From positions 1 to 64,000 of the forward strand of contig CABDVE010000001.1 of assembly GCA_901420285.1 (NCBI GenBank): 64,000 nucleotides of DNA. Reading direction: 5' to 3'. The notes below the pieces were generated by a model. The model saw only the letters and a program-made list of their open reading frames with translations. It did not search any database and had not been told where the DNA came from. Below are positions 1-64,000 of the stretch, piece after piece. The position numbers and the translations under genes are program-made. This stretch comes from Stutzerimonas stutzeri. Lineage in GTDB: Bacteria > Pseudomonadota > Gammaproteobacteria > Enterobacterales > Pasteurellaceae. The stretch's first letter is position 1. Every line of letters starts with the position of its first letter.

Positions 1-1356
1 GTGAGCCTCTCCAATCTTTGGCAAAACTGCCTTTCTCAATTACAAGATCACGTTTCCGCCACCGATTTAAGTACTTGGCTTCGTCCGTTGCAGGCGGATG
101 TGGTGTCCAACGATCAAATTGTCCTTTACGCATCCAACATGTTCGTCAAAGGCTGGGTGGAGACCCATTACCTTGTGCAAATCCAACAAATTTGCCAAAC
201 ACTCGCACAAAATCCAAATTTACAAATTATTCTTAAAGAAGGCGTAAAACCGGCTCCCAATGCGGTGCCCACAGCGCCTGTCAAACCATTAGCAACGGTC
301 GATTTTGAACAAGAAATTGAAAAACCAGTGAAATTCGAATCGCACCTCAATGCCAAACATTTATTTGAAAACTTTGTTGAAGGGAAATCCAATCAACTGG
401 CGCGCGCAGTAGGACAAAAGCTTGCGCAAGCACCAGGCGAACCTGCAGCGAATCCATTCTTTTTATACGGTGGCACCGGGTTAGGTAAAACTCACTTACT
501 ACACGCCATCGGCAACGGTATTTTAGCCAACAAACCGAATGCACGAGTACTTTACATTCACGCCAACAATTTCATGCAACACATGGTAAAAGCCATGCGT
601 GACAACAATATGGAGCAATTCAAAAAGTTTTATCGCTCATTGGATGCATTACTGGTGGATGACATCCAATTCTTTGCTGAAAAAGAGAAAACACAAGAAG
701 AATTCTTCCATATTTTCAATAATTTATTTGAAACCGGTCGGCAAATTATTTTAACTTCGGATCGTTATCCGAAAGAAATCGAAAAAATCGAAGAACGTTT
801 AAAATCCCGCTTCGGTTGGGGCCTAACTACCGCCATTGAGCCACCGGATCTGGAAACTCGCGTAGCGATTTTACTAAAAAAAGCAGAAGAACATCACATG
901 CATTTGCCTGAAGAAGTGGCGTTCTTTATTGCGCAACGTTTACGTACTAACGTACGTGAACTTGAAGGCGCACTTAACCGCGTAAAAGCTATGCAAGATT
1001 TCAAAGGTGGCGATATCAATATCGACTTTGTGCGTGATACGCTAAAAGATATTCTTGCGTTGCAAGAACGTTTGGTGACGATTGATAACATTCAAAAAAC
1101 CGTCGCGGAATACTACCGCATTAAAGTCTCGGATTTAAAATCGAAAAGCCGCCAACGCTCAGTTACCCGTCCACGCCAAATTGCCATGGCATTAGCCAAA
1201 GAATTGACCAACCGCAGTTTGCCCGAAATCGGCCGCGCATTTGATCGTGATCACACCACAGTATTAAACGCTTGCCGCGAAGTACCGAAATTCCGCGAAA
1301 AAGACAACAGTATTCAAGAAGATTGGGCGAACTTGATTCGCACGTTATCCGCATAA
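1..1356 (+). CDS. dnaA: Chromosomal replication initiator protein DnaA
   Basis: Binds DnaA boxes at oriC, opens the duplex and loads the helicase. The protein has 451 residues, a normal family length. It shows an N-terminal helicase-interaction domain, a variable linker (about 85-110), an AAA+ core with Walker A GGTGLGKT (157-164) and Walker B VDD (219-221), and a C-terminal DNA-binding helix with the RDHTTVLNA signature (about 414-422). The start is GTG at the first base of the window, so its promoter and ribosome site lie outside. It is followed by dnaN 9 bases downstream. One copy of the repeated word AATGCGGTGC lies in the linker at 259-268, where it encodes part of Asn-Ala-Val. Confidence 0.98.
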
Positions 1357-1365
1357 GGAGCCGTC

Positions 1366-2466
1366 ATGCAATTTAGTATTTCGAGAGAAAATCTCTTAAA
1401 ACCCTTACAGCAAGTTTGTGGTGTATTAACCAGCCGCCCGAACATTCCCGTGTTGAATAATGTATTGTTACACATTGAAGACAACCGCTTAACCATCACG
1501 GGAACGGATTTGGAAGTGGAACTGTCCAGCTGCACCCAACTTTCCTCCGCCACTGCAAACGGTAGTTTTACAATTCCGGCAAAAAAATTCCTTGATATCT
1601 GCCGTACATTGTCCGACGAGTTTGAAATTACCGTTAGTTTTGAAGAAGATCGTGCTATCGTACAGTCAGGCAGAAGTAAATTTAACCTCACGACACTGCC
1701 GGCGGAAGAATATCCGAACTTAACAGATTGGCAATCAGAAGTGGATTTTGAGTTGCCGCAAAGCACTTTGCGCCGCCTAATTGAAGCGACCCAATTTTCC
1801 ATGGCAAATCAAGATGCGCGCTATTTCTTAAACGGTATGAAGTTCGAAACTGAAGGCAATTTACTGCGTACCGTAGCAACCGACGGTCACCGTCTTGCAG
1901 TCTGTACCATCGCCCTTGAACAAGAATTACAAAATCATGCAGTAATTCTACCGCGTAAAGGTGTACTAGAACTTAGTCGCTTACTTGAAACGAGCGACGA
2001 ACCGGCCCGTTTACAAATCGGCACGAATAACCTTCGTATTCACCTTAACCACATTGTATTTACCTCAAAATTAATTGACGGTCGTTTTCCTGATTACCGT
2101 CGCGTATTACCGCGCAATGCGACGAAAATCGTCGAAGGCAGTTGGGAAGCATTAAAACAAGCCTTTGTACGCGCCTCAATTTTGTCTAACGAGCGGGTTC
2201 GCAGCGTACGTTTAAATTTAACCGAGAACCAACTTAAAATCACCGCATCCAACCCAGAACACGAAGTAGCGGAGGAAATCGTCGATGTGGCTTATGTCGG
2301 TGAAGAATTGGAAGTCGGCTTCAACGTCACCTACATTTTAGACGTACTGAACGCACTAAAATGCCAACAAGTTCGCATTCGCTTAACTGACGCCTCATCC
2401 AGCTGCTTAATTGAAAATTGTGAAGACAGTAGCAGCGAATACGTGATTATGCCGATGCGTCTGTAA
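1366..2466 (+). CDS. dnaN: DNA polymerase III beta sliding clamp
   Basis: Ring-shaped processivity clamp that tethers polymerases to DNA. The protein has 366 residues with the three-domain clamp fold. The start MQFSISRENLLKPLQQV and the end YVIMPMRL are the typical termini of the family. The ATG is preceded by AAGGAG overlapping the dnaA stop codon, which points to translation linked to dnaA in a dnaA-dnaN-recF operon. recF begins one base after the dnaN stop. Confidence 0.98.
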   Translation: MQFSISRENLLKPLQQVCGVLTSRPNIPVLNNVLLHIEDNRLTITGTDLEVELSSCTQLSSATANGSFTIPAKKFLDICRTLSDEFEITVSFEEDRAIVQSGRSKFNLTTLPAEEYPNLTDWQSEVDFELPQSTLRRLIEATQFSMANQDARYFLNGMKFETEGNLLRTVATDGHRLAVCTIALEQELQNHAVILPRKGVLELSRLLETSDEPARLQIGTNNLRIHLNHIVFTSKLIDGRFPDYRRVLPRNATKIVEGSWEALKQAFVRASILSNERVRSVRLNLTENQLKITASNPEHEVAEEIVDVAYVGEELEVGFNVTYILDVLNALKCQQVRIRLTDASSSCLIENCEDSSSEYVIMPMRL

Positions 2467-2467
2467 G

Positions 2468-3547
2468 ATGGCCATTTCCCGCTTATTAGTTGAAAAATTT
2501 CGTAATTTAAATGCCGTGGAGCTAGAATTTGCTCCCGGCTTTAACTTTTTGGTCGGCAACAACGGTAGCGGTAAAACCAGCCTGTTAGAGGCGATTTTCT
2601 ATTTGGGGCATGGCCGCTCCTTCAAAACTACGGTGACAAATCGCATTATTTCTTACGAAGAACCGTACTTCACCCTATTCGGACAAATTCAAGAAAGTCG
2701 GCATCAATGGTCGGTAGGCTTACAAAAACTGCGCCAAGGCAATACCCTCGTAAAAATCAATGGCGAAGATGGCAATAAAATTGCCGATCTCGCCCATCTT
2801 CTTCCTATGCAACTGATTACGCCGGAAGGTTTAACCTTGCTGAACGGTGGCCCAAGCTTTCGCCGCGCATTTTTAGATTGGGGTTTATTTCATCATCACT
2901 CCGGTTTCCATTCGGCATGGCGCAATCTCAATCGCTTACTCAAACAACGCAATGCGGTGCTGATCCAGCGACAACCTTATGCGGCAATAAGAGTATGGGA
3001 TTTGGAATTGGCTAAATTTGCTCATCAAGTTAGTCGCTGGCGTACGGAATACGCTGAAGCCTTACGCCCGAAAATCGAGCAAACTTGTCAATTATTTTTG
3101 CCTGAAATTGAAATCAACGTCAGTTTCCACCAAGGCTGGGACAAAGACACCGAATACGGCGATTTACTGGCACAAAGTTTTGAACGCGATAAAGCCCTAG
3201 GCTACACCTTTTCTGGTCCGCAAAAAGCCGATTTTCGTTTTAAAACCAACGGATTACCGGTAGAAGACGTACTTTCTCGCGGACAATTAAAACTGCTCAT
3301 GTGTGCCTTACGTCTAGCCCAAGGCGAACATTTAATGCAAGAAAAACAGCGCCGTTGCATTTTCTTAATTGACGATTTCGCCTCCGAGTTAGATCAGTTC
3401 AAACGCGCATTACTTGCCGAACGCTTACAACAAAGCGACTCACAAGTTTTTGTCAGCGCGATCACGCAAGATCAATTAAAAGAAATGAAAGTTGAGACAG
3501 GGAAATTATTTAAGGTTAATGAAGGAATTGTCCAAGCACTAGACTAA
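2468..3547 (+). CDS. recF: DNA replication and repair protein RecF
   Basis: SMC-like ATPase that helps load RecA at single-strand gaps. The protein has 359 residues. Walker A GNNGSGKT lies near residues 30-37, the ABC-type signature is SRGQLKLL (about 270), and Walker B is FLIDDFASELD (about 298-308). The start ATG is one base after the dnaN stop, so translation is almost certainly coupled. One exact AATGCGGTGC lies inside the gene at 2951-2960. A hairpin terminator follows immediately. The downstream genes converge on it from the other strand. Confidence 0.97.
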   Translation: MAISRLLVEKFRNLNAVELEFAPGFNFLVGNNGSGKTSLLEAIFYLGHGRSFKTTVTNRIISYEEPYFTLFGQIQESRHQWSVGLQKLRQGNTLVKINGEDGNKIADLAHLLPMQLITPEGLTLLNGGPSFRRAFLDWGLFHHHSGFHSAWRNLNRLLKQRNAVLIQRQPYAAIRVWDLELAKFAHQVSRWRTEYAEALRPKIEQTCQLFLPEIEINVSFHQGWDKDTEYGDLLAQSFERDKALGYTFSGPQKADFRFKTNGLPVEDVLSRGQLKLLMCALRLAQGEHLMQEKQRRCIFLIDDFASELDQFKRALLAERLQQSDSQVFVSAITQDQLKEMKVETGKLFKVNEGIVQALD

Positions 3548-4192: not shown

Positions 4193-4279
4193 TTCAATGC
4201 GGTGCTAATTTAGGACTTCATCGCTACCAGCCGTTAGTTGAGAACAATTATGTTGCAACTTCAATGCGGTGCTAATTTA
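4193..4279. repeat. Two direct copies of the AATGCGGTGC motif between hscA and fdx
   Basis: A 20-base word beginning TTCAATGCGGTGCTAATT occurs identically at 4193-4212 and 4260-4279, 67 bases apart, in the same orientation. The bases between show no coding potential. These are solitary (not inverted) copies of the window-wide motif. Confidence 0.85.
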
Positions 4280-7790: not shown

Positions 7791-7818
7791 AAAAGTGCGG
7801 TTAATTTACCGCACTTTT
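7791..7818. repeat. Inverted pair of canonical AAGTGCGGT uptake sequences, iscU-iscA gap
   Basis: AAAAGTGCGGT at 7791-7801 and its exact reverse complement at 7808-7818, with a 6-base loop. The core is the Haemophilus-type uptake signal. A hairpin in the iscU-iscA message is expected. The T-rich side faces the + strand, so termination of the isc transcript should be weak. Confidence 0.85.
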
Positions 7819-10052: not shown

Positions 10053-10785
10053 CTATATTAAGTAACTCTAAGCGTTTTTCAACCGCACTTAACATGCCAT
10101 GTAAAATATTTAATTCATTTTCTTCTACACTTGCACGGTTATACAAACGTCGTAATTTTTGCATAACACCTTGATTTTTAATAAATCCTAATGATTGATA
10201 AACACGCTCTGTATGCTTAAAGAAATATTCCATCTCCTGCGCATTAGCATGCCTTTTTGACTCATCAGATTTATTAGCCAAGGAAAATGAAAAACCATTT
10301 TCCTTATTTGCTAAAAATGCCATTCTAAGTTCGTAGCTCACCAATTGAACAGCCATTGCCAAGTTGAGCGAGGAATAATCAGGATTTGCAGGAATCGTTA
10401 AATGATAATGACATTTCAGCAGTTCCTCATTACGCAGACCTACACGCTCACGTCCAAATACAATCGCAATATTCCCTTGATATAATGATATTTTTTCAGC
10501 ACATTCTCTTGGCCCAAGCAGAGTACTTTGTAAATGGCGCAAACGCGCGCTAGCACCTATCACTAATGAGCAATCTGCAATAGCTTCATCAAAACTTGAG
10601 ACAATATGTGCGTTCGTGACAATATCATCCGCACCGGCTGCCAAGGCAAGCGATTGTTTATCAACCGATTTTGGAGAAACAAGATACAACTGAGAAAGTC
10701 CCATTGTTTTCATTGCTCGAGCCGCAGAACCTATATTTCCACTATGAGAAGTTTCAATAAGCACTATTCGAATATGATCAAACAT
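10045..10785 (-). CDS. trmJ: tRNA (cytidine/uridine-32 2'-O) methyltransferase TrmJ
   Basis: SPOUT methyltransferase that modifies position 32 of several tRNAs. The protein has 246 residues. It starts MFDHIRIVLIETSHSGNIGSA and carries the AdoMet knot segments IVFGRERVGLRNEE and NPDYSSLNLAMAVQL. It lies just upstream of iscR, as in E. coli, and its last codons overlap the iscR control site. One canonical uptake sequence lies near its 3' end (10082-10090). Confidence 0.95.
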   Translation of the reverse strand: MFDHIRIVLIETSHSGNIGSAARAMKTMGLSQLYLVSPKSVDKQSLALAAGADDIVTNAHIVSSFDEAIADCSLVIGASARLRHLQSTLLGPRECAEKISLYQGNIAIVFGRERVGLRNEELLKCHYHLTIPANPDYSSLNLAMAVQLVSYELRMAFLANKENGFSFSLANKSDESKRHANAQEMEYFFKHTERVYQSLGFIKNQGVMQKLRRLYNRASVEENELNILHGMLSAVEKRLELLNIDS

Positions 10786-10900: not shown

Positions 10901-11029
10901 ATTATGCAGCAAATGCACAAAACTATTTGAGGAATTAAGTTTACTTCACAAAATAGCACCGCATCGGAAGTCATTTCAATGCGGTGCTATTTTGTGAGGT
11001 CATTTCAGCTTTATACACAGCTGCATAAT
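10901..11029. repeat. Palindromic intergenic element, copy A
   Basis: 129-base non-coding unit. The outer arms ATTATGCAGC (10901-10910) and GCTGCATAAT (11020-11029) are perfect inverted repeats. An inner 19-bp perfect inverted repeat (10946-10964 / 10979-10997) is built from the AATGCGGTGC motif. The word GCAAATGCACAAAAC after the left arm recurs in copies B (29215) and C (58082). It lies downstream of the tRNA genes and upstream of trmJ. Confidence 0.65.
10946..10997 (-). terminator. Hairpin of paired motif copies after the tRNA-Lys cluster
   Basis: Perfect 19-bp inverted repeat with a 14-base loop, arms 10946-10964 and 10979-10997. One arm holds an exact AATGCGGTGC and the other a one-base variant. 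It lies 44 bases past the last tRNA and probably ends that transcript, although a long T run is missing. Confidence 0.5.
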
Positions 11030-14943: not shown

Positions 14944-15636
14944 TTAATGGGAATGCGGTGCTCTACCAAAGGCTTGACGATGTAAAATCGTGGTAAATTC
15001 ATCAATAAAGTTACCGTAATTTTGCTCAATCGCATTTACACGTAAGCTTAACCGGTTATAAGCCATGACGGCCGGAATCGCAGCAAACAAACCGATGGCA
15101 GTTGCAATCAATGCTTCCGCAATCCCCGGCGCTACCATTTGTAAAGTAGCTTGCTTAGCGCCACTTAATGCCATAAAAGCGTGCATAATCCCCCAAACGG
15201 TACCGAACAAACCGATATACGGGCTTACAGAAGCCACTGTCGCTAAGAACGGCACGCGACTTTCAAGCATTTCCACTTCTCGATTCATCGCTAAATTCAT
15301 TGCACGCGAAGTTCCTTTAATTATTGCTTCAGGCGCCTCCGGATTGACTTGCTTTAAACGAGAAAATTCCTTAAAACCGACAAAGAAAATTTGTTCGCTT
15401 CCAGTTAACCCATCGCGGCGATTTGATAAACCTTCGTATAATTTATTTAAGTCTTCGCCTGACCAGAAACGATCTTCAAAAGTATTCGCTTCTTTTAACG
15501 CATTTGTTAATACACGACTACGTTGGATAATAATCGTCCAAGAAATAATTGAGAATGAAATTAAAATCACAATTACAAGTTGAACAACAATACTCGCTTT
15601 TAGAAAAAGCTCTAAAAAGTTCAATTCTGCAGTCAT
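14944..15636 (-). CDS. tolQ: Tol-Pal system protein TolQ
   Basis: MotA/ExbB-like proton-channel subunit. The 230-residue protein has three membrane helices, near 15-37, 135-157 and 170-192. The conserved Gly/Thr-rich block [13 protein letters not shown] lies in the second. GGAG precedes the ATG at 15636. An exact AATGCGGTGC lies within the last codons (14952-14961). Confidence 0.97.
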
Positions 15637-16136: not shown

Positions 16137-16146
16137 AATGCGGTGC
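16137..16146 (+). repeat. Solitary AATGCGGTGC motif, ybgE-ybgC gap
   Basis: One intergenic copy with the full CTATTTT extension, within the 93 bases between ybgE and ybgC. Confidence 0.8.
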
Positions 16147-16547: not shown

Positions 16548-17684
16548 TTAGTATAATGAGTTTTTGTTGTTTGACACGAAGCTTTCATCCAAACGGCCGA
16601 ACATTTTCATGTATGACCAAATGGTGTACGCGAGAGAAATCGTTACAAATACGAGCGCTAAACCTAGCATTAAGGTTAAGGTTAATTCGCTTGAGGTTGC
16701 ATCCCACATTAACAAGCTTTGTTCCGGATGAGAACTTGAAGGCATTACGAACGGGAACATAGAAACCGCAGCGGTAATAATCACGCCGGCCATAGTTAAT
16801 GCCGAAAAGAAGAACGCGAAACCGCAACGATTTGCTTTAGAAGCGGCAACATTTAGCAATGCGCCCACCACTGCCAATGCCGGGAAAAGCCATAGAATCG
16901 GCATTTCGTTGAAGTTTTTGAACCATGCTCCAATTTCTACTTTCACTTCTTTACCCATAGGAGAAGAAGGCGCTAAGTGGTCAATAGCGCTGGTTACAAC
17001 ATAACCATCCTTAAAGTATAACCATACGCCTGCAAGCACAAATGCGATCAAAGTTACAAGTGCGCCAATTTGAGTAATTGCACGAGCACGATCTCTTAAT
17101 TCAGCCGTGGTTTTCATTTGTAACCAGTTTGCACCGTGCGTGACAAGCATGGCCAAACTAATCACACCGCATAATAAAGCGAACGGGTTTAATAAAGCAA
17201 AAAATGACCCCGTATAGGTGACTTGTGCGATTTCATTGAATTCAAATGGCACACCTTGTAGTAAATTACCGAATGCTACGCCAAACACTAATGCCGGTAC
17301 AAAACCACCTGCAAACAACCCCCAATCCCAGGCAGTACGCCATGTTGGGCTATCAATTTTGGCACGGTATTCAAAACCAATCGGACGGAAGAATAACGCT
17401 GCCAACACTAATACCAATGCGATATAGAAACCGGAGAAAGAAACGGCATATACGATAGGCCAGGCTGCGAACACCGCACCACCGGCGGTTAACAACCAAA
17501 CTTGGTTACCGTCCCAATGCGGTGCTATTGTGTTAATCATAATTCGACGTTCCACTTCTTTTTTACCGACAATTGGTAAAAGCGCGGTTACGCCCATATC
17601 AAAGCCATCAGTTACAGAAAAACCGATCAGCAATACGATGACCAATATCCACCAAATAAAACGTAGAAATTCATAATCAATCAT
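16548..17684 (-). CDS. cydB: Cytochrome bd ubiquinol oxidase subunit II
   Basis: Membrane subunit of the high-affinity quinol oxidase. The 378-residue protein has about eight membrane helices. The conserved start YEFLRFIWWILVIVLLIGFSVTDGFDMG and the APHWDGNQVWLL block are present. The repeated word, read on the opposite strand at 17516-17525, encodes Ala-Pro-His of that conserved block, so in this gene the word fits an existing protein constraint. It lies 14 bases after cydA. Confidence 0.97.
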   Translation of the reverse strand: MIDYEFLRFIWWILVIVLLIGFSVTDGFDMGVTALLPIVGKKEVERRIMINTIAPHWDGNQVWLLTAGGAVFAAWPIVYAVSFSGFYIALVLVLAALFFRPIGFEYRAKIDSPTWRTAWDWGLFAGGFVPALVFGVAFGNLLQGVPFEFNEIAQVTYTGSFFALLNPFALLCGVISLAMLVTHGANWLQMKTTAELRDRARAITQIGALVTLIAFVLAGVWLYFKDGYVVTSAIDHLAPSSPMGKEVKVEIGAWFKNFNEMPILWLFPALAVVGALLNVAASKANRCGFAFFFSALTMAGVIITAAVSMFPFVMPSSSHPEQSLLMWDATSSELTLTLMLGLALVFVTISLAYTIWSYMKMFGRLDESFVSNNKNSLY

Positions 17685-38972: not shown

Positions 38973-39329
38973 TCATTCCAACGAACCTTTTTCCACCACC
39001 ACGCCAACGGACTTCGCTTGCGGCACCGCATTGGGTTTGCTAAGTTTCAAGCGTAACCATTGAACGCCAAAACGCGTTTGCAATTTTTCCGCCACCTCGT
39101 AAGCGACCCGCTCCACCAATAAAAACGGCTTCGACTGCACGTAATCCAGCACAAATTGGCTTACTTCCGCATAATTTAAGCAATATTGCACGTCATCAGT
39201 TTGTGCGGCTTTCCGGCAATCCCAAGCCATTTCGATGTCGAACACGAGTTTTTGTTTGATTTGTTGCTCCCAATCATATACGCCGATTTGAGCGAACACG
39301 CTTAATTCTTCGATAAAAACACGATCCAC
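38973..39329 (-). CDS. folB: Dihydroneopterin aldolase
   Basis: Folate pathway enzyme that makes 6-hydroxymethyl-dihydropterin. I choose GTG 39329 (start M/VDRVFIEELSVFAQIGVYDWE) because GGAGG lies eight bases upstream. This gives 118 residues, the usual Pasteurellaceae size. The TTG 15 bases earlier would sit in the ribosome site. The catalytic Lys is near residue 99 in LKLSKPNAV. The 39023-39032 motif copy encodes Asn-Ala-Val in that block. Confidence 0.94.
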   Translation of the reverse strand: MDRVFIEELSVFAQIGVYDWEQQIKQKLVFDIEMAWDCRKAAQTDDVQYCLNYAEVSQFVLDYVQSKPFLLVERVAYEVAEKLQTRFGVQWLRLKLSKPNAVPQAKSVGVVVEKGSLE

Positions 39330-40022: not shown

Positions 40023-40032
40023 AATGCGGTGC
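40023..40032 (+). repeat. Solitary AATGCGGTGC motif, plsY-rpoH gap
   Basis: Intergenic copy 11 bases after the plsY stop, before the shared terminator. Confidence 0.8.
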
Positions 40033-41903: not shown

Positions 41904-41913
41904 AATGCGGTGC
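41904..41913 (+). repeat. Solitary AATGCGGTGC motif, rnr-rlmB gap
   Basis: Intergenic copy with TAATTTG extension between rnr and rlmB. The 102-base gap shows no other clear signal. Confidence 0.8.
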
Positions 41914-44486: not shown

Positions 44487-44531
44487 AAATAGCACCGCAT
44501 TGGAGCGCCTTCCAATGCGGTGCTATTTTTA
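44487..44531 (-). terminator. Hairpin of paired motif copies after rluA
   Basis: 18-bp perfect inverted repeat (44487-44504 / 44511-44528) with a 6-base loop. Both arms contain an exact AATGCGGTGC. The arms end in ATTT/AAAT and T or A runs follow. Position fits a terminator for the rapA-rluA operon. Confidence 0.7.
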
Positions 44532-45253: not shown

Positions 45254-48031
45254 TTATTCCTTGTTTGTGATGATGACGCGCAAACTGTCCAATCGCCAAT
45301 TGGCTTTGGCAAGTTCCTGCAGGGATTGGTCGCGTTGTGCGCTCAAAATCTCAATTTCAGTTCGACGAATATTTTTATTCACTGCTTGTAACGCTTGCAG
45401 ACGATGAAGTTCCGCGCTTAAAGTTTGGTCGGCAAGCTGTTGCGCCTCGGCGATAACCGCTTGCGCCAAGGGCTCAATGCGGTGCTCTCCGACGAGTAGT
45501 AGCCGTTCCAATGTCGGTCGTGCCATTTTTATCATTTTGCTTGCCACTTCCCGTCCGAGTGGTTTAAGTTTGTCTTGTAAGGTTTCAAAGGCCACTTGGG
45601 CGGCAATGTCATGACCTTTGTTATCAAGTAATAAACGAATCGGCGTCGGCGGCAAAAAACGACTAAGTTGCAGCCCTTTCGGCGACTGACTTTCCACCAA
45701 ATACACCAATTCTAATAACAATGTACCGGCCGGCAATCGTTTGTTGATAAGCAACGCCGCAGCGGCCTTGCCGATGTCGCCGGAGGCGATTAAATCGATT
45801 CCTTGACGAATCATTGGGTGATCCCAAGTAAAAAATTCCAGTTCTTCGCGCGCCAGCGCAAGATTGCGATCAAAGGTTACCGTTACGCCTTCTTCTTTTA
45901 AGCCCGGGAAATCCGGCACCAGCATGGTGCCGGTCGGCGTAATCACAATGCTGTTCTCACCCAAATCCTCTTGTTCCACGCCGATAATATCGAATAAATT
46001 CAGCGTAAAGTTCACCAATTCGCTTTCGTTATCTTGCGCCGCGATGGCTTCGGCTAGAGCTTGCGCTTGCTCGCCACCGTTAGAATTAAGTTCCAACAAG
46101 CGATCGCGGCCTTTTTCTAACTCAAGTGCAAGTTTTTCGCGCGCTTCTTGGGTTTGCTTAATCAACGACTCAAAAAACGTTTCAGAAATTGAGCGCACTT
46201 TCGCCAGTTCATCGGCGAAACGTTCAAATAACGCCATGCCCGTCGAACTGCTTTGCACAAAGGCGTTCAAGCCTTCGTGATACCAACGCGCCAGTTTTTG
46301 CTCCGTCGAACCTGCTACGCAGGGCACGTAAATTTGCACATCGCGCAACTGCCCGATGCGATCCAAGCGGCCGATAGATTGCTCCAATAAATCGGGATTT
46401 TGCGGCAAATCAAATAAGACTAAAGTACCGGCAAACTGGAAGTTACGCCCTTCCGAACCGATGCTTGAACTAAGCAACACCTGCGCCCCCTGTTCCGTAT
46501 CGGCAAAATACGCCGCGGCGCGGTCGCGTTCGACAATCGACATATTTTCATGGAACAGCGCGGCGCGAATGGCTTCTTTTTCACGCAAAATTTGTTCCAA
46601 CGCCATCGCGGTCTGCGCACTTTGGCAAATCACTAATACTTTTTCAGTACGCCGGGTTATAAGAAAATCTCTCAGCCATTGCGTTTTCACCGCCTCTATT
46701 TCGGATTCATTTTCCGCCTGCAACGTAATTTGATGATAAATACGACGCGGAAAACCCTTCACTCCTTGACGCGTATTACGAAACAAAACGCGGCTGGTGC
46801 CGTGACGGTCAATTAAATTTTGTATCAATTCTTGGCGTGCGCGTTGCTGCGCTTCTGCATGATCGGAAGCCATTGCACGAAATAGCGGTGCGGCATCTTG
46901 CTCACCCAATAAATCGGAAATATGATTTTTTTCTGCCGCGCTTAAGGCGTTGTCGGCAAGCAAAGATAGCACCGCATCGGCAACCGGTTGATAGTGTTGT
47001 TGCTCTTTTTGGAACGCGGCATAATCAAAGAATCGCTCCGGATCGAGCAGTCGCAAGCGGGCAAAATGACTTTGCCGACCAAGTTGTTCCGGCGTAGCGG
47101 TGAGCAATAACACGGAAGGCGTCGCTTGAGCGAGTCGCTCCACCAATAAATAGGCGGGACTTGGTTCTTCTTCGTGCCAAACCAAATGATGCGCTTCGTC
47201 CACAATTAAACAATCGAAACCGGCGGCAAGTGCTTGTTCGACGCGTTGAGGCGAATCGGCCAACCAATCCAACGCGCAAATAATCAGCGCCTCCGAGGCG
47301 AACGGATTCTCACCGCCGGCGGCAAAATCGGCGCAACGTTCTTCGTCGAATAAGGAAAAATGCAAATTAAAACGCCGCAACATTTCCACCAGCCATTGAT
47401 GTTGCAAGGTTTCCGGTACCAAAATCAACACGCGCCGCACTTTTTCGGCAAATAACTGATTTTGCAAAATCATGCCCGCTTCAATGGTTTTTCCTAATCC
47501 CACTTCGTCCGCCAACAACACACGCGGATTCACGCGATTGCCTACTTCGGCGGCGATATGTAATTGGTGCGGAATCAGCCCCGCGCGAATGCCGCGCAGC
47601 CCGCGTAATGACGATTTGAATTGCGCCCGTTGATGTTGCAAGGTGCGATAACGTAAGGCGAAATGATGACTGCGGTCAAGTTGCGCCGAAAAGAGACGAT
47701 CTTTTGCAGAACTGAACGAAATAAGCGGTGAAATATCGCTTTCTTGCACAATCACCCGTTCACCCTGTGAATTTTTCACTAAATAGAAATTCAACCCATT
47801 TAGGTGTTGAATATCCTCAACATTGCCTTGCCAACCTTCTTTATGGCTAAGAAATTCGCCCTTGTTAAATTGAATGCGCATAAGCGGCGCTTGGGCGACA
47901 GAATAAATTCGCGTTTCATCCGATGCAGGAAAATGGAGCGTTACAGTGCGCGCATCAAATGCGGTGACTACGCCTAATCCAAGATTATTTTCAGTTTCGC
48001 TCAACCAACGCTGACCAAGGGCAAAGGGCAT
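45254..48031 (-). CDS. rapA: RNA polymerase-associated ATPase RapA
   Basis: Swi2/Snf2-family protein that recycles RNA polymerase. I choose ATG 48031 ([14 protein letters not shown]), 925 residues; another ATG lies directly before it, and the open frame continues to 48130. An N-terminal Tudor-like region is followed by helicase motifs [16 protein letters not shown] (about 170-186) and DEAH (about 277). The C-terminal helicase lobe has [11 protein letters not shown], and [11 protein letters not shown] follows near 560. It carries two copies of the motif (45476; a one-base variant at 46970). Confidence 0.95.
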
Positions 48032-48225
48032 CATATCGTTCTTTCTTTTTCGTTCGTTTCGGTACGGGGCGGCTATTGTAGCCCGATTAAAAGGGAAAGC
48101 AACGAAAACTGTGATCTGCTTCACAGTCATAAGAATTCCCGCCTTTGTCGCTTTACTTTGAACTTTACTTTGAAAAAGTGCGGTGCAAAAATGGCGCGGA
48201 TTTTCATTTAAAAACGGAGTAAAAA

Positions 48226-48959: not shown

Positions 48960-49003
48960 AAAATAGCACCGCATTGGAGCCTGTCTCAATGCGGTGCTAT
49001 TTT
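48960..49003 (-). terminator. Hairpin of paired motif copies after the efflux operon
   Basis: 17-bp perfect inverted repeat (48960-48976 / 48987-49003) with a 10-base loop. Both arms contain an exact AATGCGGTGC and end in four A/T. It follows acrB on the minus strand, 33 bases past its stop. Confidence 0.65.
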
Positions 49004-49040: not shown

Positions 49041-52000
49041 GCGCGGGTTTGCTTGCGTTTTCTTCAAACACTGGTAACGGTTTGTGTTCGGTCGCCACAT
49101 AGCTGTACACCACAGGCAATACGAATAGGGTGAAAATGGTGCCGATGGATAAACCGGCTACAATAACGATACCGATACTAAAACGCGATACCGCGCCGGC
49201 CCCCGTTGCGTAAAGCAGCGGAATCAAACCGGCTACCATTGCAGCGGTAGTCATCAAAATCGGACGTAAACGCACTTTTGCAGCAGCGGTAATCGCGTCA
49301 ATGCGATTCTTACCGTGTAATAACTGCTCTTCTTTCGCCACTTCGCACATTAAAATACCGTGCTTGGTGATAAGCCCGACGAGGGTAATTAAGCCTACTT
49401 GCGAGTAAATATTCAAGGTGGTGCCTGAAATACCGAAGAAAGATAACAAGTTAAGCATCAATAACGCGCCGCTTACCGCCAATGGCACGGAAATCATAAT
49501 CACCATCGGATCGCGAACCGATTCAAATTGAATCGCCAACACCAAGAAAATAATGATCACCGCCAAGGCGAAAGTGACCGCCAACGCGTTGCCTTCCTGT
49601 ATCAGCTGACGCGATTCCGATTTGAAGTCGTAAGTATAGCCTTGCGGAAGAGTGCTATCCGCTTGTTGTTGCAACCAAGCTACCGCATCGCCGGTGGAAC
49701 TGCCCGGCATCGGCACCGCACTGATGGTCGCCGCATTTAATTGACTAAAGCGCGGTAACGAAGTCGGTTGGGTTTCAAGTTTTATGCTAATCAAACTGCT
49801 CAGCGGTACGGCTTCGCCATTGCTGGCATTTAAGTAGTAATTGTTGAAACTTTCCGGCGATAAACGATCGTCGCGTTTTACTTGCGAAATCACTTTATAA
49901 GCCCGCCCGTCGATATCGACTCGAGTAATGGTGGCGCCCGACAAGAAACTGCCTAACGTATTACTGATTTGTTGCATGCTGATACCGTAAGTTCCCGCTT
50001 TTTCCTTATCGACGGAAATCGTCATCTGCGCGGTATCATATTTCAAGTCAAGATTGGTATAAATAAACTTACCCGACGCTTTCATCGCTTGTAAAAATTT
50101 CTCGGCGGTATTGGCTAAAGCATTATAGTCTTGCGCCGTTTTCAACACGATGGAAACCGGCGGACCTTGTTCTCCCGTATCGATTTCTGGGAAGTTAAAG
50201 GCAGACACGGAAACTTCCGGAATGCTTTTTGCCTTCGCATTCAGTTCGTTCATAATTGCTGCTTGTTTGCGAGAACGTTCTTTCCAATCTTTCAGTGTCA
50301 CGATATTCAACGATGCGTTAGAACTCGGCGCGCCGGCGATACTCATTCCAAACGATACTTCCGGCATCTCCATCAGGTTTTTCATATAAGGCTGCATCGC
50401 ATCTTGAATGTAGTCCACGTTTACATTAGACGGTGCCGAACCGATAGCGATAAATGCCCCCTTGTCTTCATTCGGCGTCAATTCGCTGGAAAGCGAATTG
50501 AAAAGAAACGGCAAACTTGCAAAGATCGCCATCGCAAAAACCACCATAGATTTACGGTTTTGCATCACGATGTCTAACATATAGTTATACAGCGCATTCA
50601 TTTTTCCGAGCGTATGTTCGACTTTGCGTTCCATCCAAGTCGGTTGCGCATTGGATTTCAGCAATTTGCTGGTCATCATCGGTGACAGCGTTAATGCCAC
50701 GATACCCGAAATGAACACCGCACCGGCAAGTGTTAAGGCGAATTCTTTAAACAGCGTACCGGTAATACCGCCCATTAAAGCCATCGGAGAATACACGGCG
50801 ATTAAAGAAATCGTCATGGAAATAACCGGCAAGGCAATTTCGCGCGTACCGATAATTGCTGCACGGAACGGCGTTTCCCCTTCTTTAATATGTCGATCCA
50901 CATTTTCCAATACGACAATCGCATCGTCCACCACCAAACCGATGGCAAGAATGAGCGCTAACAATGTCATCAAGTTAATGGAAAAATCTAAACTTTGTAA
51001 CATCATTAACACCCCAATCAAAGAAATCGGAATGGTTAACACCGGAATTAAAATGGCGCGCAGCGAGCCGATAAACATCAAAATCACTACCAAAACGATC
51101 ACCGTTGCTTCAACGATGGTTTTTACCACTTCATTGATCGAGCTGTTAATCGCAATGGTGCGGTCGTAGAGGATGTCGGATTCAATACTGTCCGGCAATT
51201 GTTTCTTAATGTTGTCGTACAACGGACGAATTTTTTCCGCTACCGTCAACGGGTTGGCGGAAGAGGTCGGGTTAATGCCTAATACTACAGAATCCGCGCC
51301 GTTAGCCGTGGCGCGCGAGTTATCGCTTTCTTTATTTAATTCAATGGTCGCAATATCGCGTAAGCGCACTAAATCATCGCCGTTTGAAGCCACAATCAGG
51401 TTGCCCAATTGTTCGACAGATTTCGTGGTGGTTTCCACTTTGTTGCGATAAGTCACATAGTAACCGTTGTCGCTACCCGCGGCGGTTTGTACGTTGTTCG
51501 CCGACAGAGCGGACATCACAGCTGGGGCGGAAAGATTTTGCCCAGCCATTTTTTGCGGATCCAACCAAATACGCATCGCATATTCCGCGGCACCAAAGAT
51601 TTGTACTTCCGCCACCCCTTCAATGGTAAAGAACTGCGGTTTCACCACACGGTTGATATAGTCGGTTACCTGGCTGGAATCGAGTTTCTTGGAACGGAAA
51701 CTAATATACATAATCCCCGTACCGCCCGATGAAGACGCCACGGTTGGATCTTCAATCCCGCTTGGTAACTCGGAGCGCACCGCATTGACCTTCGCCAATA
51801 CATCCGCAAGCGCCCCCGCCGGATCCGTATTAAGCTTCATTTTTACAGTGATGGTGGAAGAGCTCGGCGCACTTGAGGAAGACATATAATCAATATTGTC
51901 CGCTTGGGCGATCGATTCTTCCAGTTTTGAGGTGACAAAAGCTTGAATCAAGTTTGCATCTGCCCCCGGATATGCGGTGGTTACGGTAATAACCGTGGTC

Positions 52001-54069: not shown

Positions 54070-54834
54070 TTACATCCCGATAATTACGCAACTGATCACC
54101 TCTTTGGCCTTATCTTGCGCTTGTACCGCGCCCTCTCGATTTGGAAACGGCCCCACGCGCACGCGATTCCATTCTCCCGCTTCCAGCACCTGCGCATTTA
54201 CGCCGGCCATCGCCAAACGACCTTGTAAACTCTCCGCTTGGGCACGGTTCTTAAAAGCACCGCATTGAAGACCAAAGCGCTTACTACCGGCGGCTACCGT
54301 TTCCACCGGTTTACTTTCTGCCGCTTTAGTCTCCACTTTCTTCGCCGTTTCAACTTTGACAGCTTCGGCTTTTTTCACCGTTTCTGCCGACTTTTTCGCT
54401 TCTGCTTTAGCCTCATCGGTTTGCGCCGTTTCCTGAGCTTGTGCTTTTTGCTCCGCCTCTTTGCGCATATCTTCCGCCGCCTTTTGCTCTTTTTCCATTT
54501 GAATCAGCACTTGGCGCTGTTCTTCCGTTAAACGCATATTTTTTTCCACGCTGGACGGTTTATCATCCACCGGCACGGTACGAGTTTCCAAAGCTTTAAT
54601 ATAACTCCACACTTCTTCCGGGCGATTCGGTAAGACACTTTTCGGCTGCGTTTTTTCCGGCACCGGCGCTACGGAAGCCGCCCCTTCTGGAGCCTTACTT
54701 TTCAAAAAATAAAGCCCCGCACCAAAAGCAAATAACACTGCGAAAGCGATGCCAATCAGCATATTTTTATTATTGCTGTCTTTCTTTTTTTTCTTATTTG
54801 AACCGCGACGCGCGGCGAAATCTCGATGAGCCAC
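54070..54834 (-). CDS. ftsN: Cell division protein FtsN
   Basis: Late divisome protein that triggers septal peptidoglycan synthesis. The 254-residue protein has a short Lys-rich cytoplasmic tail, one membrane helix (about 25-44), a Lys/Ala/Glu-rich linker and a C-terminal SPOR domain (about 180-254). The start is GTG at 54834. It sits downstream of priA, as in E. coli. The motif copy at 54257-54266 encodes part of the SPOR start (LQCGAFKN). Confidence 0.93.
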   Translation of the reverse strand: MAHRDFAARRGSNKKKKKDSNNKNMLIGIAFAVLFAFGAGLYFLKSKAPEGAASVAPVPEKTQPKSVLPNRPEEVWSYIKALETRTVPVDDKPSSVEKNMRLTEEQRQVLIQMEKEQKAAEDMRKEAEQKAQAQETAQTDEAKAEAKKSAETVKKAEAVKVETAKKVETKAAESKPVETVAAGSKRFGLQCGAFKNRAQAESLQGRLAMAGVNAQVLEAGEWNRVRVGPFPNREGAVQAQDKAKEVISCVIIGM

Positions 54835-54934: not shown

Positions 54935-57127
54935 TCAAGTCAGATCTTGCGGATCTACATCTAATATCAAACGCACTTGAGTGTTTTTTTCCACATGCGA
55001 AAAACGGTATTCCCGTAACGCCTTTTGTAAGGCCGTTCGCGAAGTATGTTGCAACAACAACTGCCAACGAAATCGTCCCGCCTTTTTGCTAAAAGGCGCC
55101 GGCAACGGGCCAAGAATCTGTAATCCTGTAATATTCTTCTCGCGGAAAAAATCCGCAATTCGTGCCAATTGGTTTTCCGCCGCCTCCGAATCGCGCGCCT
55201 GCGCTTTGAACAATGCTTGGAAACTAAAAGGTGGCAAGCCCATGGCACGGCGTAAACGCAAGGTTTCTTGCGCAAATGCTTGATAACCGTGCGCCAGCAA
55301 CGCGTTCAATAAAGGATGATCGGGGTAATGAGTTTGCAGCACCACTTCCCCTTGTTTTTCTGCCCGTCCTGAACGCCCCGCCACTTGCACATAAAGCTGT
55401 GCCAAGCGTTCTTCCGCACGGAAATCCAAGGAAAATAAAGCGCCGTCCACGTTTACCAAAGCCGCCAAAGTAACATTCGGGAAATGATGCCCTTTTGCCA
55501 ACATTTGTGTACCGATAAGAATTTGACTTTTGCCCTGCTGAATATCTGCCAAATAACCTTCCAACTTCCCTTTGCGCGCCGTGCTGTCGCGATCAATACG
55601 CGCCACGGAATAGTTCGGGAAGCGGGCTTTTAACGTTTCTTCCAATTGTTCGGTGCCCAATCCGGTGGTTACCAAGTGTGTGCTCCCACAAGCACCGCAT
55701 TGACGCGGCACCGTTTTCTGCGAGCCGCAATGATGACAGCGCAATGCGCGTTGATGTTGGTGATAAGTATAAGGTTTTTCGCAATGGGGACATTGCGCCA
55801 TCCAACCGCATTCGTGGCACAGCAACACCGGCGCGAAGCCGCGTCGGTTCAAAAATAACAACACTTGATTGCCTTTTTCCAAATGGCTTTGCATATGTTC
55901 CAACAAAGGTTGCGACAAGCCGTTTTGTACGCGCTGATTTTTTAAATCAATGACAAATTGACGAAGAGTTCCCGCATTTCCTGCTCTTTTTGATAGCACC
56001 AAGTGCTTAAATTTACCGTTTTGTACGTTATTAATACTTTCCAAACTTGGCGTTGCCGAGCCCATCAGAACCGGAATATTGAGCTTTTGAGCCAGCACGA
56101 TGGCCAAATCGCGTGCGTGATAGCGCCAGCCGTCATGCTGTTTGAATGACGCGTCGTGTTCTTCATCTAAAATAATGCAACCCAAATCGGCAAATTGCGT
56201 AAATAGCGCTGAGCGGGTGCCGATCAGCACCGCATTGAGCCCGCTTCTGGCGCGCTCCCACACATGCAACCGTTGGGTGTCGTTTAAATTCGAATGCAAC
56301 ACGTCGATTTCTACGTTAAAACGCGCTTTGAAACGTTGCACCGTTTGCGGCGTCAGTCCGATTTCCGGCACCAACACCAACACCTGTTTACCGACTTTCA
56401 ACATTTCTTCGATATATTGCAGATAAATTTCGGTTTTGCCCGAGCCCGTCACGCCGTCCAACAGCCATACGTTAAAATCGCGTTGAAATATCAGTTGACT
56501 AAACGCCAACGCTTGTTGTTTGTTCAACGTTAAGCGATTTTCCAAATTCACCAAAGGCTTGTTGCCCAAGACTTCCCGCCAACTTTTAGGTTCGATATGA
56601 AGGCGTATTTCGTCCACCAAATGTTTACCTTTCAAGGCCGACCAAATTGTTGTCGAAAACCCATTATTGCCCTTTTCCAAATCTTGCTCGAGCAAACATT
56701 GCAAGGCTTCCGCTTGTTTTTTAGAACGTTTCAGTTCGCCTTGCGCAAGCGCTTTTTCGCCCGCCGCATTAATGCGCCAAAATGCGCGTTCTTCTTGCGC
56801 CAATTTTTCACCGTTACGCAATTTCACCGGCAATGCCTGAAACAACACTTCGCCGATCGCTGCCTGATAATAATTCGCCGCCCAATGCAGCCAATTCCAA
56901 TAAATCGGTGCAAATAACGATTGCTCATCCAAAGGTTCAAGCACGGTTTTTAATTTCTCCGCCGACATCGCCGATTGCGCCGCCAACTCCACCACTATCG
57001 CCAGCCGCTTTTGCGAACCGAAAGGCACCCAAACGCGCCCGCCCGGCGGTAACGGCATATCGTCGGGTGCGAGATAATCAAACAAATGGGGAAGCGGCAC
57101 AGCAAGCGCCACGCGGACAATTTTCAT
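54935..57127 (-). CDS. priA: Primosomal protein N' (PriA helicase)
   Basis: Restarts stalled replication forks. I choose ATG 57127 ([16 protein letters not shown]), 730 residues; the open frame extends 34 residues. A 3'-DNA-binding domain (1-105) is followed by Walker A VTGSGKTE (about 226), DEEH (about 320) and eight zinc-ligand cysteines (about 436-480, [15 protein letters not shown] pattern). Two motif copies lie inside (55692-55701 and 56227-56236). Confidence 0.96.
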
Positions 57128-57995: not shown

Positions 57996-58302
57996 TTTAT
58001 TTCTCTGAAAAATTTATTTGCTTCCTTTTTGTTTAATTATCATCGGCGAAACTCGATATAAAAAACAAATACATTCCTGCGAAATTATGTAGCAAATGCA
58101 CCAAACCGTTGAATCAAGAGTTAGCATCAAACATAGCACCGCATTGAAAGCAGCTCCAATGCGGTGCTATTTTGCAAAGGTAATTCCAGCGTTGTGCAAC
58201 TGCTACATAATTTCCCATTCCTGTCCACAAAACCCAATGCCAAAATTCCCAATTTAATATAGAATACCCGCCCGATTTAACCTCAACCATTAGGAGAAAC
58301 CC
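57996..58302. other. trmB-yggL intergenic region with element C
   Basis: 307 bases without a gene. The middle is the 132-base palindromic element (58082-58213) with a paired motif. The rest is A/T-rich with no other clear signal. TAGGAGA (58291-58297) is the yggL ribosome site. Confidence 0.65.
58082..58213. repeat. Palindromic intergenic element, copy C
   Basis: Outer 13-bp perfect inverted repeats AAATTATGTAGCA (58082-58094) / TGCTACATAATTT (58201-58213). An inner 14-bp inverted pair of the AATGCGGTGC motif lies at 58133-58146 / 58157-58170. The segment GCAAATGCACCAAAC just inside the left arm is shared with copies A and B. No open frame of note. Confidence 0.7.
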
Positions 58303-58869: not shown

Positions 58870-59409
58870 ATGACCGTTGAAAACTTATCACGCCGACAAC
58901 TGTTACGTGGAAAACTTTTAACATCGTTACAGTCAAAAAGCGAGCAAACCGAAGATTTTGCCCCGATTCGTCCGCCTTGGTCAGTGACTAATGAGGAATT
59001 TATTGCTCAATGTACGCGTTGCGGAGAGTGCCTCAATGTTTGTGAAACGCACATTTTGGTTAAAGGTGATGGCGATTTTCCGGAATTGAATTTTGAACAC
59101 GGCGAATGCACTTTTTGTGGAAAATGTGTCGATATCTGTGAACAGCCGATTTTTCGTCCTAAAGAGGAAACGCCTTGGTCATACAAGATCAGCATTTCAA
59201 CCGGATGTCTTACTGAGCACCGCATTGAATGTCGTTCCTGCCAAGATAGTTGTCCCCAAAACGCCATTCGTTTTCGTTTACAATTAGGTGGCGTAGCAAA
59301 ACCAAGTGTAGCCTTGGAAAGCTGTAATGGGTGCGGTGCTTGCGTAGCGAATTGTCCAACAAAAGCAATTAGTATTAGAAGAGGAATAGTTAACGATAAC
59401 CATGAATAA
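58870..59409 (+). CDS. napF: Ferredoxin-type protein NapF
   Basis: Cytoplasmic protein with four [4Fe-4S] sites that helps mature NapA. It has 179 residues. I choose ATG 58870 rather than the preceding TTG; AAAAGG lies upstream. CxxCxxxC-type clusters are CTRCGECLNVC, CTFCGKCVDIC, CRSCQDSCP and CNGCGACVANCP. It overlaps napD by eight bases. A motif copy at 59217-59226 lies at the third cluster (EHRIEC). Confidence 0.95.
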   Translation: MTVENLSRRQLLRGKLLTSLQSKSEQTEDFAPIRPPWSVTNEEFIAQCTRCGECLNVCETHILVKGDGDFPELNFEHGECTFCGKCVDICEQPIFRPKEETPWSYKISISTGCLTEHRIECRSCQDSCPQNAIRFRLQLGGVAKPSVALESCNGCGACVANCPTKAISIRRGIVNDNHE

Positions 59410-62222: not shown

Positions 62223-62252
62223 GCACCGCATTGAGCCCTTGCCTGATGCGGT
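62223..62252. repeat. Motif copy with imperfect inverted partner, napA-napG gap
   Basis: Exact GCACCGCATT (62223-62232) and a partial inverted ATGCGGT (62246-62252). It lies within the nap operon, so it is unlikely to be a full terminator. Confidence 0.7.
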
Positions 62253-62264
62253 TAAGAAAAGAAA

Positions 62265-63080
62265 ATGAAGAAACCTATCCTTAATCCTGAACGCAGAAAA
62301 TTTTTAAAAGACGCCGGTAGAACCGCCGGCGGCTTAGCCGGCGTGGGGATTTTGTTGGGGTTACAACAAAGCCAAAGTCTTGCTCGCGAAGGCGTGGCGT
62401 TGCGCCCCCCTTTTGCTTTGCAAGATGCCAAAGCCTTTTCGGCCGCTTGTATCCGCTGCGGACAATGCGTACAAGCTTGTCCTTACGATATGTTGTACTT
62501 GGCGTCTTTATTATCGCCATTGGAAGCGGGCACGCCGTACTTTATCGCACGCGATAAACCTTGCGAAATGTGCCCGGACATTCCTTGTGCCCACGCTTGT
62601 CCTAGCGGTGCCTTGGATCGTTATGCGACGGATATCAACGAATCGCGTATGGGGCTTGCGGTATTGCTCGATCATGAAACCTGCCTGAACTGGCAAGGAT
62701 TACGTTGTGATGTGTGTTATCGGGTTTGCCCGTTAATCGATAAAGCGATTACACTGGAAAAACAACATAATCCACGTTCGGATAAACATGCTTTATTTAT
62801 CCCGACCGTGCATTCTGACGCCTGTACCGGCTGCGGAAAATGCGAACAGGCTTGCGTGCTAGAGGAAGCGGCGATCAAAGTATTACCGATGGATCTCGCT
62901 AAAGGTATGTTAGGCAAGCATTATCGTTTGGGCTGGGAAGAAAAGACAAAAGCCGGTCATTCCCTCGCGCCGAAAGATATGATTTCGTTGCCAACGCGTA
63001 CACCGGAAGCCGCCGCAACGGCGACTATGCCGGAACCGGCGGAACCGATTTTGGCACCGACTTTAGGAGGGGCTAAATAA
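62265..63080 (+). CDS. napG: Ferredoxin-type protein NapG
   Basis: Periplasm-facing [4Fe-4S] protein that passes electrons from menaquinol via NapH. The 271-residue protein has a twin-arginine signal [12 protein letters not shown] (about 9-20) and four Cys clusters, including [35 protein letters not shown] and [12 protein letters not shown] Pro/Ala-rich C-terminal tail (about 240-271) makes it longer than the E. coli protein. One base of its stop is shared with napH. Confidence 0.95.
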
Positions 63081-63943
63081 TGGCGAATGCACCGAAATAC
63101 GCAGGTAAGGAATCCCGTGAAAAATGGGGTTGGTGGTATGCCAATCGTTTCTTATTTTGGCGCCGCTTAAGTCAATTTAGCATTCTCGCAATGTTTTTAA
63201 GCGGGCCTTATTTAGGCGTATGGATTCTAAAAGGCAATTATAGCGGAAGTTTATTGCTGGATACCGTGCCGTTAAGCGATCCCTTAATTACGGCAGAAAG
63301 CTTGGCTGCGCGTCATTTACCCGATGTGTTGACCTTAATCGGTGCGGTAATTGTCGTGTTGTTTTACGCATTACTCGGCAGCAAAGTTTTTTGTGGCTGG
63401 GTATGTCCGTTGAATGTGGTCACCGATGCGGCCGCTTGGTTACGTCGTAAACTCGGTATTCGTCAAACCGCCAAACTCTCTCGCGGCTTGCGTTATGGTA
63501 TTTTAACCATGATTTTAGCGGGCAGTGCGGCAAGCGGTATGCTCCTTTGGGAATGGATTAATCCCGTCGCAGCATTCGGTCGCGCTTTTATATTCGGCTT
63601 CGGCGCAACCGCTTGGTTATTGTTGGTCATTTTTCTTTTCGATTTATTAATTGTAGAACACGGCTGGTGCGGCCATCTTTGCCCGATTGGCGCTGCTTAC
63701 GGCGTTATCGGCGCAAAAAGCCTAATCCGAATTAAAGTAATTGATCGCGCGAAATGCGACAATTGTATGGATTGCTACAATGTCTGCCCGGAAGCCCAAG
63801 TGTTACGTTCGCCTTTACACGGCAAAAAAGACGAAAGCCTTCTCGTGCTTTCTAAAGATTGCATCAGCTGCGGACGTTGTATTGACGTTTGCGCTGAAAA
63901 AGTTTTTAAATTTTCGACCAGATTCGATCATTCAGGGGAGTGA
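63080..63943 (+). CDS. napH: Quinol dehydrogenase membrane component NapH
   Basis: Inner-membrane protein that oxidises quinol for the Nap pathway. The 287-residue protein has four membrane helices, near 28-50, 90-112, 138-158 and 175-195. CGWVCPLN and CGHLCPIG motifs face the cytoplasm, and two C-terminal [4Fe-4S] sites read CDNCMDCYNVCP and CISCGRCIDVC. Its ATG overlaps the napG stop. Confidence 0.95.
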   Translation: MANAPKYAGKESREKWGWWYANRFLFWRRLSQFSILAMFLSGPYLGVWILKGNYSGSLLLDTVPLSDPLITAESLAARHLPDVLTLIGAVIVVLFYALLGSKVFCGWVCPLNVVTDAAAWLRRKLGIRQTAKLSRGLRYGILTMILAGSAASGMLLWEWINPVAAFGRAFIFGFGATAWLLLVIFLFDLLIVEHGWCGHLCPIGAAYGVIGAKSLIRIKVIDRAKCDNCMDCYNVCPEAQVLRSPLHGKKDESLLVLSKDCISCGRCIDVCAEKVFKFSTRFDHSGE

Positions 63944-63948
63944 TTAAA

Positions 63949-64000
63949 ATGACTAAACAGGTATCTAAAATTTTAGCGGGTTTCATCACCGCGCTTTTGG
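63949..64000 (+). CDS. napB: Periplasmic nitrate reductase cytochrome subunit NapB (5' end only)
   Basis: Only the first 17 codons are in the window: MTKQVSKILAGFITALL, the start of a Sec signal peptide. The identification rests on position after napH in the napFDAGHB order; no haem motif is visible. GGGGAG in the napH end serves as the ribosome site. Confidence 0.75.
   Translation, partial: MTKQVSKILAGFITALL

Follow-up and report, generated by a model that had tools for sequence, protein, structure and literature searches.

What is a word of ten bases, AATGCGGTGC, doing over and over on both strands of the first 64,000 bases of contig CABDVE010000001.1 (assembly GCA_901420285.1), a stretch called the window below? 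The initial annotation of the window had proposed a diverged dialect of the uptake signal sequences (USS) of Pasteurellaceae. This reading was supported. Whole-genome counts near chance or limited to one region, which the annotation had named as refuting it, did not occur, and the genome and its relatives proved to be Pasteurellaceae with uptake sequences. The word is very probably the core of a third USS dialect of the family, which became fixed through a change in uptake preference peculiar to this species.

Abundance, distribution and anatomy of the word

Thirty-six exact copies of AATGCGGTGC existed in the window, and dinucleotide-preserving shuffles gave a mean of 0.28 and a maximum of 2, which bears out the earlier claim of a frequency far above chance. 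The 35 starts and orientations listed before were all correct, and a 36th copy at 21300 on the minus strand had been missed. The whole genome (1,931,086 bases, two contigs) held 656 forward and 524 reverse copies, 1,180 in total or about 0.6 per kb, and the reversed word, used as a control, was found 6 + 1 = 7 times. Hundreds to thousands of copies in both orientations across a genome are a hallmark of USS. In a 459-kb sample of the same genome, composed of the window, one 15-kb and nineteen 20-kb stretches (21 pieces), the top ranks among overrepresented 9- and 10-mers were taken by words of the AATGCGGTGC motif, which was present in all 21 pieces, the nineteen 20-kb stretches included. Of 312 copies counted over 444 kb of own sequence, the 207 outside dense clusters were scattered across the sampled stretches.

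Among 140 Pasteurellaceae genomes, the 11-mer CAATGCGGTGC was abundant only in the two assemblies of this species (1,090 copies in the one under study, 1,091 in the other), with 0-9 copies in each of the other 138. For AATGCGGTGC, the count did not exceed 50 in any of 60 further genomes, 13 from the genus, 23 from the family and 24 from other families in the order. The word is far above chance genome-wide and, among the genomes searched, in this species only, which answers the question that the initial annotation had left to a whole-genome count. The maximum of 50 belonged to a 4.3-Mb genome of another family of the order (G049), where the backwards word occurred 7 times, a mild and unexplained excess.

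The Haemophilus uptake word, AAGTGCGGT, had 1,270-1,816 copies in 13 of 13 other Rodentibacter species searched. Here it had 195 + 162 = 357 (backwards control 42; second assembly 334), compared with 1,180 of AATGCGGTGC, so the Haemophilus-type word is not the dominant one. The Actinobacillus pleuropneumoniae-type USS (Apl-USS), ACAAGCGGT, did not dominate either: its 42 copies were at background (control 50), and an Apl-type origin of the new word was rejected on this count.

The genus is Rodentibacter, as rapA of G003:C73 and G012:C39 matched the named R. mrazii and Rodentibacter sp. Ppn85. In a midpoint-rooted RapA tree of 34 rows, both assemblies of the species sat beside the 13 other Rodentibacter species, and this group was nested in a 26-row clade in which the loci of all named members showed AAGTGCGGT, not ACAAGCGGT, as the main word. 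An uptake word different from that of close relatives suggests that the gate for DNA import changed its preference, and the simplest reading is that the dialect change occurred on the stem branch of this species. For a record titled Rodentibacter caecimuris (L006), RapA formed a long branch apart from the remaining Rodentibacter rows.

Of 317 sites with full flanks, the 212 that lay outside clusters served to profile the motif. Upstream of the core the preferences were T (.70), C or T (.95) and C (.89); downstream they were T (.87) and A or G (.75), followed by a T-rich tract. A weaker second element, TTCAATT-like, was located at +21 to +27, with C and A preferred and C as the strongest base (.63). 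The fuller form of the word given by the initial annotation was correct, and the motif extends further still. The dialect form would be about YCAATGCGGTGCT, followed by an AT tract and then by the weaker second element about one helical turn on. Two USS hallmarks, the inner core GCGG and two downstream AT-rich segments, were both present, the first segment clear and the second weaker. Counted from GCGG, both elements lie near the two AT-rich segments of the sister Haemophilus USS (94 sites). The 80 remaining own AAGTGCGGT sites kept these segments in weakened form, for example with T at.60 versus.91 (+14) and.74 versus.90 (+25).

The new word shares with the Haemophilus-type USS (Hin-USS, AAGTGCGGT) the GCGGT core, an AT tract after the core, a second element about one turn downstream, a similar density, paired terminator-like copies and an origin by point mutation. 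It differs in CAAT for AAGT before the core and in a fixed GCT after it, much as the initial annotation had compared the two; the second element is TTCAATT-like instead of GTTTTT, and the AT tract is shifted by about one base. The GCGGT core and the three-part plan are also shared with Apl-USS, which has another four bases before the core and no fixed GCT; Apl-USS marks a whole subclade (PMC1626085, in excerpt), whereas the new word marks one species.

The features of the window are as follows, "new-dialect USS core" standing for AATGCGGTGC as a putative core.

259..268, + strand, new-dialect USS core, exact match
2951..2960, + strand, new-dialect USS core, exact match
4196..4205, + strand, new-dialect USS core, exact match
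4263..4272, + strand, new-dialect USS core, exact match
7793..7816, Haemophilus-type USS pair AAGTGCGGT (7793 +, 7808 -), read as relic
10082..10090, - strand, Haemophilus-type USS, read as relic
10978..10987, + strand, new-dialect USS core, exact match
14952..14961, + strand, new-dialect USS core, exact match
16137..16146, + strand, new-dialect USS core, exact match
17516..17525, + strand, new-dialect USS core, exact match
20828..20837, + strand, new-dialect USS core, exact match
21300..21309, - strand, new-dialect USS core, exact match, absent from the initial list
22523..22532, + strand, new-dialect USS core, exact match
23726..23734, - strand, Haemophilus-type USS, read as relic
23868..23877, - strand, new-dialect USS core, exact match
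29304..29335, inverted pair (29304 -, 29326 +), hairpin of -24.1 kcal/mol in a 55-nt fold
30055..30063, - strand, Haemophilus-type USS, read as relic
32796..32805, - strand, new-dialect USS core, exact match
33075..33084, + strand, new-dialect USS core, exact match
35513..35554, + strand, three tandem cores (35513, 35529, 35545) repeating every 16 bases, in a short region flanked by long open reading frames (ORFs)
35663..35671, - strand, Haemophilus-type USS, read as relic
39023..39032, - strand, new-dialect USS core, exact match
40023..40032, + strand, new-dialect USS core, exact match
40270..40279, + strand, new-dialect USS core, exact match
41904..41913, + strand, new-dialect USS core, exact match
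44153..44161, + strand, Haemophilus-type USS, read as relic
44492..44523, inverted pair (44492 -, 44514 +), terminator-like hairpin, -30.3 kcal/mol
45476..45485, + strand, new-dialect USS core in rapA; Haemophilus-type site absent there in 13 of 13 aligned sisters
48176..48184, + strand, Haemophilus-type USS, read as relic
48966..48997, inverted pair (48966 -, 48988 +), terminator-like hairpin, -27.7 kcal/mol
51777..51786, - strand, new-dialect USS core in an RND (AcrB-family) transporter gene
54257..54266, - strand, new-dialect USS core; same 11-mer in one aligned sister
55692..55701, - strand, new-dialect USS core in priA
56227..56236, - strand, new-dialect USS core in priA, on the Haemophilus-type USS of 8 of 13 aligned sisters, ungapped, same orientation
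58136..58167, inverted pair (58136 -, 58158 +), terminator-like hairpin, -23.9 kcal/mol
59217..59226, - strand, new-dialect USS core, exact match
62223..62232, - strand, new-dialect USS core on the Haemophilus-type USS of 2 of 2 aligned sisters, same orientation, gaps nearby

Origin by substitution and conservation of the sites

About 815 kb of sister alignments (mean identity 77%) contained 31 distinct new sites that could be aligned, which made 315 site-by-sister cells. The alignment was ungapped around the new word in 240 of these cells, so the sites arose by point mutation and not by insertion, another hallmark of USS. Two to five of 11 bases differed from the nearest ungapped sister at 23 of the 31 sites, three sites had no ungapped cell, and at 54257 of the window one aligned sister carried the identical 11-mer. 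Four sites (26 of 315 cells) overlapped a sister AAGTGCGGT in the same orientation, and 27 did not. These conversion sites were L173:12343 (4 of 11 sisters), L232:13249 (12 of 12), window 56227 (8 of 13) and window 62223 (2 of 2). GCGGT was in ungapped register at L173:12343 and window 56227, and gaps lay nearby in most or all cells at L232:13249 and window 62223.

The old word behaved differently among the sisters and here. Sisters shared AAGTGCGGT with each other in 7,036 of 9,185 cells, and in 75% even at 70-78% pair identity, whereas only 86 of 651 sister AAGTGCGGT cells were still AAGTGCGGT here (mean identity 75.7%); 84 of the 107 own AAGTGCGGT cells were common to sisters. Exact and one-mismatch copies were also compared, in the own sample without two adhesin stretches and in 39 sister stretches. 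The ratios were 197:81 for the new word and 80:186 for AAGTGCGGT here, and 0:13 and 426:271 in the sisters. AAGTGCGGT here has the look of a decaying relic, and the new word that of a maintained one.

The new sites were conserved within the species. Between its two assemblies, at 98.06% identity over the shared loci, 64 of 65 new sites and 11 of 15 old sites were kept (Fisher p 0.004), and the neutral expectation of retention was about 82% for new and about 84% for old sites. The probability of at least 64 of 65 being kept at the neutral rate was 4e-5, coding constraint ignored.

From the established biology of USS, a type IV pilus uptake machine would bind and import fragments with the word, and recombination would spread and keep it. 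The specificity of this machine would have moved from AAGTGCGGT to the new word along the species' stem branch. The old sites would lose their upkeep after the switch and decay as relics, and new sites would build up through mutation and uptake bias, some of them on old sites.

Four other explanations were weighed. The word could be a former USS dialect of a lineage that has since lost competence. Frequent loss of competence has been proposed (PMC1626085, in excerpt), and another genome of the family, G129, stands without most of its AAGTGCGGT and with no clear replacement in 120 kb. Against this, the retention of new sites exceeded the neutral rate (coding constraint ignored), and in both strains comNOPQ was open and the secretin, PilB and ComEC domains were free of stops. 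This explanation is improbable.

Still less probable is a transcription terminator or regulatory hairpin, whose abundance would reflect gene ends and not uptake, although part of the placement speaks for it. Among opposite-orientation neighbours not more than 60 bases apart, 22 of 29 shared a head-to-head offset of exactly 22 bases. The four pairs of the window with this offset folded strongly (-24 to -30 kcal/mol, z scores -4.5 to -8.0) and were followed by TATTT or TATTTT; the hairpin pairs and double orientation described by the initial annotation stood. By a plain ORF call over the 444 kb, 90 of the 207 non-cluster copies were intergenic, where noncoding sequence made up 13% of the total, and 2 were at edges. 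Yet 115 were inside genes (42 sense, 73 antisense), paired copies that act as terminators have been described for the established USS too (PMC12616744, in excerpt), and a terminator leaves unexplained why AAGTGCGGT decays in this genome. For the window, the former division into 16 copies inside and 19 between genes is near the 16/20 obtained with ORFs of at least 150 amino acids (aa), and ORFs of at least 60 aa gave 22/14.

A mobile or copy-spread short repeat, of the repetitive extragenic palindrome or miniature inverted-repeat transposable element kind, that invaded the species would account for high copy number and species specificity, and can nearly be discarded in view of the ungapped cells, the 2-5 substitutions from the best ungapped sister, and copies that form a short motif with degenerate flanks and no repeat unit. 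Another genome-wide role, such as a recombination hot spot or a segregation or methylation signal, has in its favour that signals of such kinds can be abundant, and is hardly credible beside the three-part USS anatomy with a GCGG core, the absence of the word from 13 congeners that keep AAGTGCGGT, the overlap with sister sites, and strand totals that are even outside the adhesin stretches (110 versus 109).

Competence machinery and candidate receptors

Type IV pilus competence genes, which a USS host is expected to carry, were present: comNOPQ, comA/B/C/E/F, pilABCD and ComEC. The comNOPQ operon adjoins recC. It was open in the two assemblies and in 12 of 13 congeners; in the remaining congener the contig is cut. 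The secretin (comE), PilB and ComEC domains had no stops in 15 of 15 genus genomes, and comA, comB, comC, comF, pilA, pilC and pilD were open frames in the genome of the window. Family matches identified comE as PilQ, comP as DUF2572 and comQ as DUF5374, and pilA was recognized by its pilin motif; comN and comO gave only weak matches to prepilin-peptidase-dependent proteins. The competence gene names are putative assignments from gene order, these matches and background knowledge.

ComN (PpdA) has been proposed as the receptor from models and from coevolution with the two dialects, with speculation on the role of its C-terminal part (PMC12616744, in excerpt). Rates were compared here for 46 genes, each with at least 9 sister orthologues. 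The ratio of own-to-sister to sister-to-sister distance was 2.17 for comO, 1.90 for comP and 1.75 for comN (ranks 3, 5 and 8), with a median of 1.41, and 1.12 to 1.49 for the 11 other competence genes. The FastTree stem measure was 4.40, 3.68 and 2.94 (ranks 2, 5 and 8 of 46). Of the residues invariant among sisters, 24 of 133 in comO, 15 of 93 in comP and 9 of 94 in comN were changed here (ranks 2, 3 and 7; Fisher p 1e-9, 6e-6 and 0.015), and 457 of 11,252 in the 43 other genes pooled. In comO, 24 of the 55 own-specific alignment columns fell within columns 121-180 of about 240. Synonymous/nonsynonymous codons between the strains were 15/1 in comO, 8/4 in comN and 4/6 in comP, too few to use. 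The comO pattern looks as if a burst had been followed by constraint.

ComN alone as the changed receptor was rejected, as it was only mildly fast on three measures. The rates tentatively implicate the pilin operon, with ComN implicated less than ComO and ComP. A change in the comNOPQ minor pilins, most clearly in ComO and ComP, may be the likeliest cause of the switch, a suggestion held with less than even confidence. A wider reading is put forward with similar reserve: USS specificity in the family would not be bound to two old subclade dialects but could switch at low rank, with one Rodentibacter species having moved to CAATGCGGTGC and a species of another genus using AACCGCGGTC. In Rodentibacter a burst of change in the minor pilins ComO and ComP, together with ComN, would have made the switch, the specificity residing in a tip complex and not in ComN alone.

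Several points weigh against a dialect fixed by changed uptake specificity and against its tracing to the pilins. Dense clusters contained 105 of the 312 copies in 444 kb, so the genome-wide scatter claimed earlier holds for the other 207 and not for these. Two stretches held 57 and 43 copies, of which 88 sat, all in one orientation, in the repeats of two giant trimeric-autotransporter-like adhesin genes (L146 4968-19475, 4,835 aa; L148 6870-17789, 3,639 aa), and because of these 88 the genome total overstates the number of independent sites. Among the competence genes sought, comD was not identified. ComN was outranked by pilD and comA on the stem measure and by comA and comB on the invariant-residue measure. 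Small non-competence genes were equally or more fast on at least one measure (window 58303-58647, 58867-59409, 59402-59686 and 44572-45312; L192 11328-11765). The receptor statistics treat columns as independent, and the contrast was drawn post hoc. In addition, the open-licence literature yielded no experiment on uptake, binding or competence in this species.

The three small fast genes at 58303-59686 stand ahead of a molybdopterin oxidoreductase gene and diverge about as much as comO or comP; two of them had an orthologue in only 9 of 13 sisters' stretches. Further enriched words of the own sample, e.g. CTGTGCTGT, occurred in the adhesin repeats too.

Uptake and USS-like words in the wider family

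Two USS types have been described (PMC12616744; PMC1626085, both in excerpt), and other specificities were left open by the 2006 study (PMC1626085, in excerpt). Their tie to two deep subclades is the picture accepted so far. No open-licence PubMed Central full text joined AATGCGGTGC, uptake and Pasteurellaceae; among the matches listed for short forms of the word, none was on uptake by its title, and among those listed for Rodentibacter with natural transformation and uptake, the sole one naming the genus was a Cas9 paper. The main text of PMC12616744 does not hold the word Rodentibacter. The third dialect thus appears unreported within the open-licence literature, and may have been reported elsewhere.

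Neisseriaceae offer a likeness, as their DNA uptake sequences also form several dialects among related species, one of them reported from the genome of a single species (PMC3630211, in excerpt). Their motif is unrelated and without AT-rich flanks (PMC1626085, in excerpt), and their receptor ComP is established, whereas excerpts of PMC12616744 give none as established in Pasteurellaceae. The dialect switch would be a natural experiment for finding the still unproven sensor of the gate. A recent switch within a genus would uncouple the dialect from the deep branching of the family, which is confounded with the published coevolution signal. With relics, converted sites and new sites together in a single genome, a dialect change would have been caught part-way, and a species-level barrier to gene exchange is a possible consequence.

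Losses and other words were seen elsewhere in the family. G129 (L171, L207-L211) had 205 copies of AAGTGCGGT versus 1,276-1,481 in its 10 congeners, with no USS-like replacement word in the 120 kb sampled, and has apparently lost USS upkeep; TCAATGACT was mildly enriched there (14 copies, 1.0 expected). In further genomes without the two known USS, USS-like words were not seen in small samples of G024 (100 kb), G106 (60 kb) and G142 (40 kb), nor in 20 kb each of G103, G104 and G105, the G103 sample holding a local repeat.

G026, the sole member of its genus searched, had background counts of AAGTGCGGT (48) and ACAAGCGGT (37). Its own word AAACCGCGGTCAAAAATTCAAGCGTTTTTT, with the core ACCGCGGTC, occurred 19 times in 40 kb (L228, L247) with flanks as in the Haemophilus USS. 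ACCGCGGTC had 916 copies in this genome and between 0 and 23 in the 139 others of the family, which brings the USS-like words of Pasteurellaceae to at least four. The sole match of ACCGCGGTC in a like full-text search was a meningococcus paper, judged by its title and the start of its abstract.

Contig 2 of the genome under study (L132, 3,313 bases) is a small plasmid without AATGCGGTGC and without AAGTGCGGT. Eleven Haemophilus plasmid records matched it at at least 99%, the best of them over 95% of its length.

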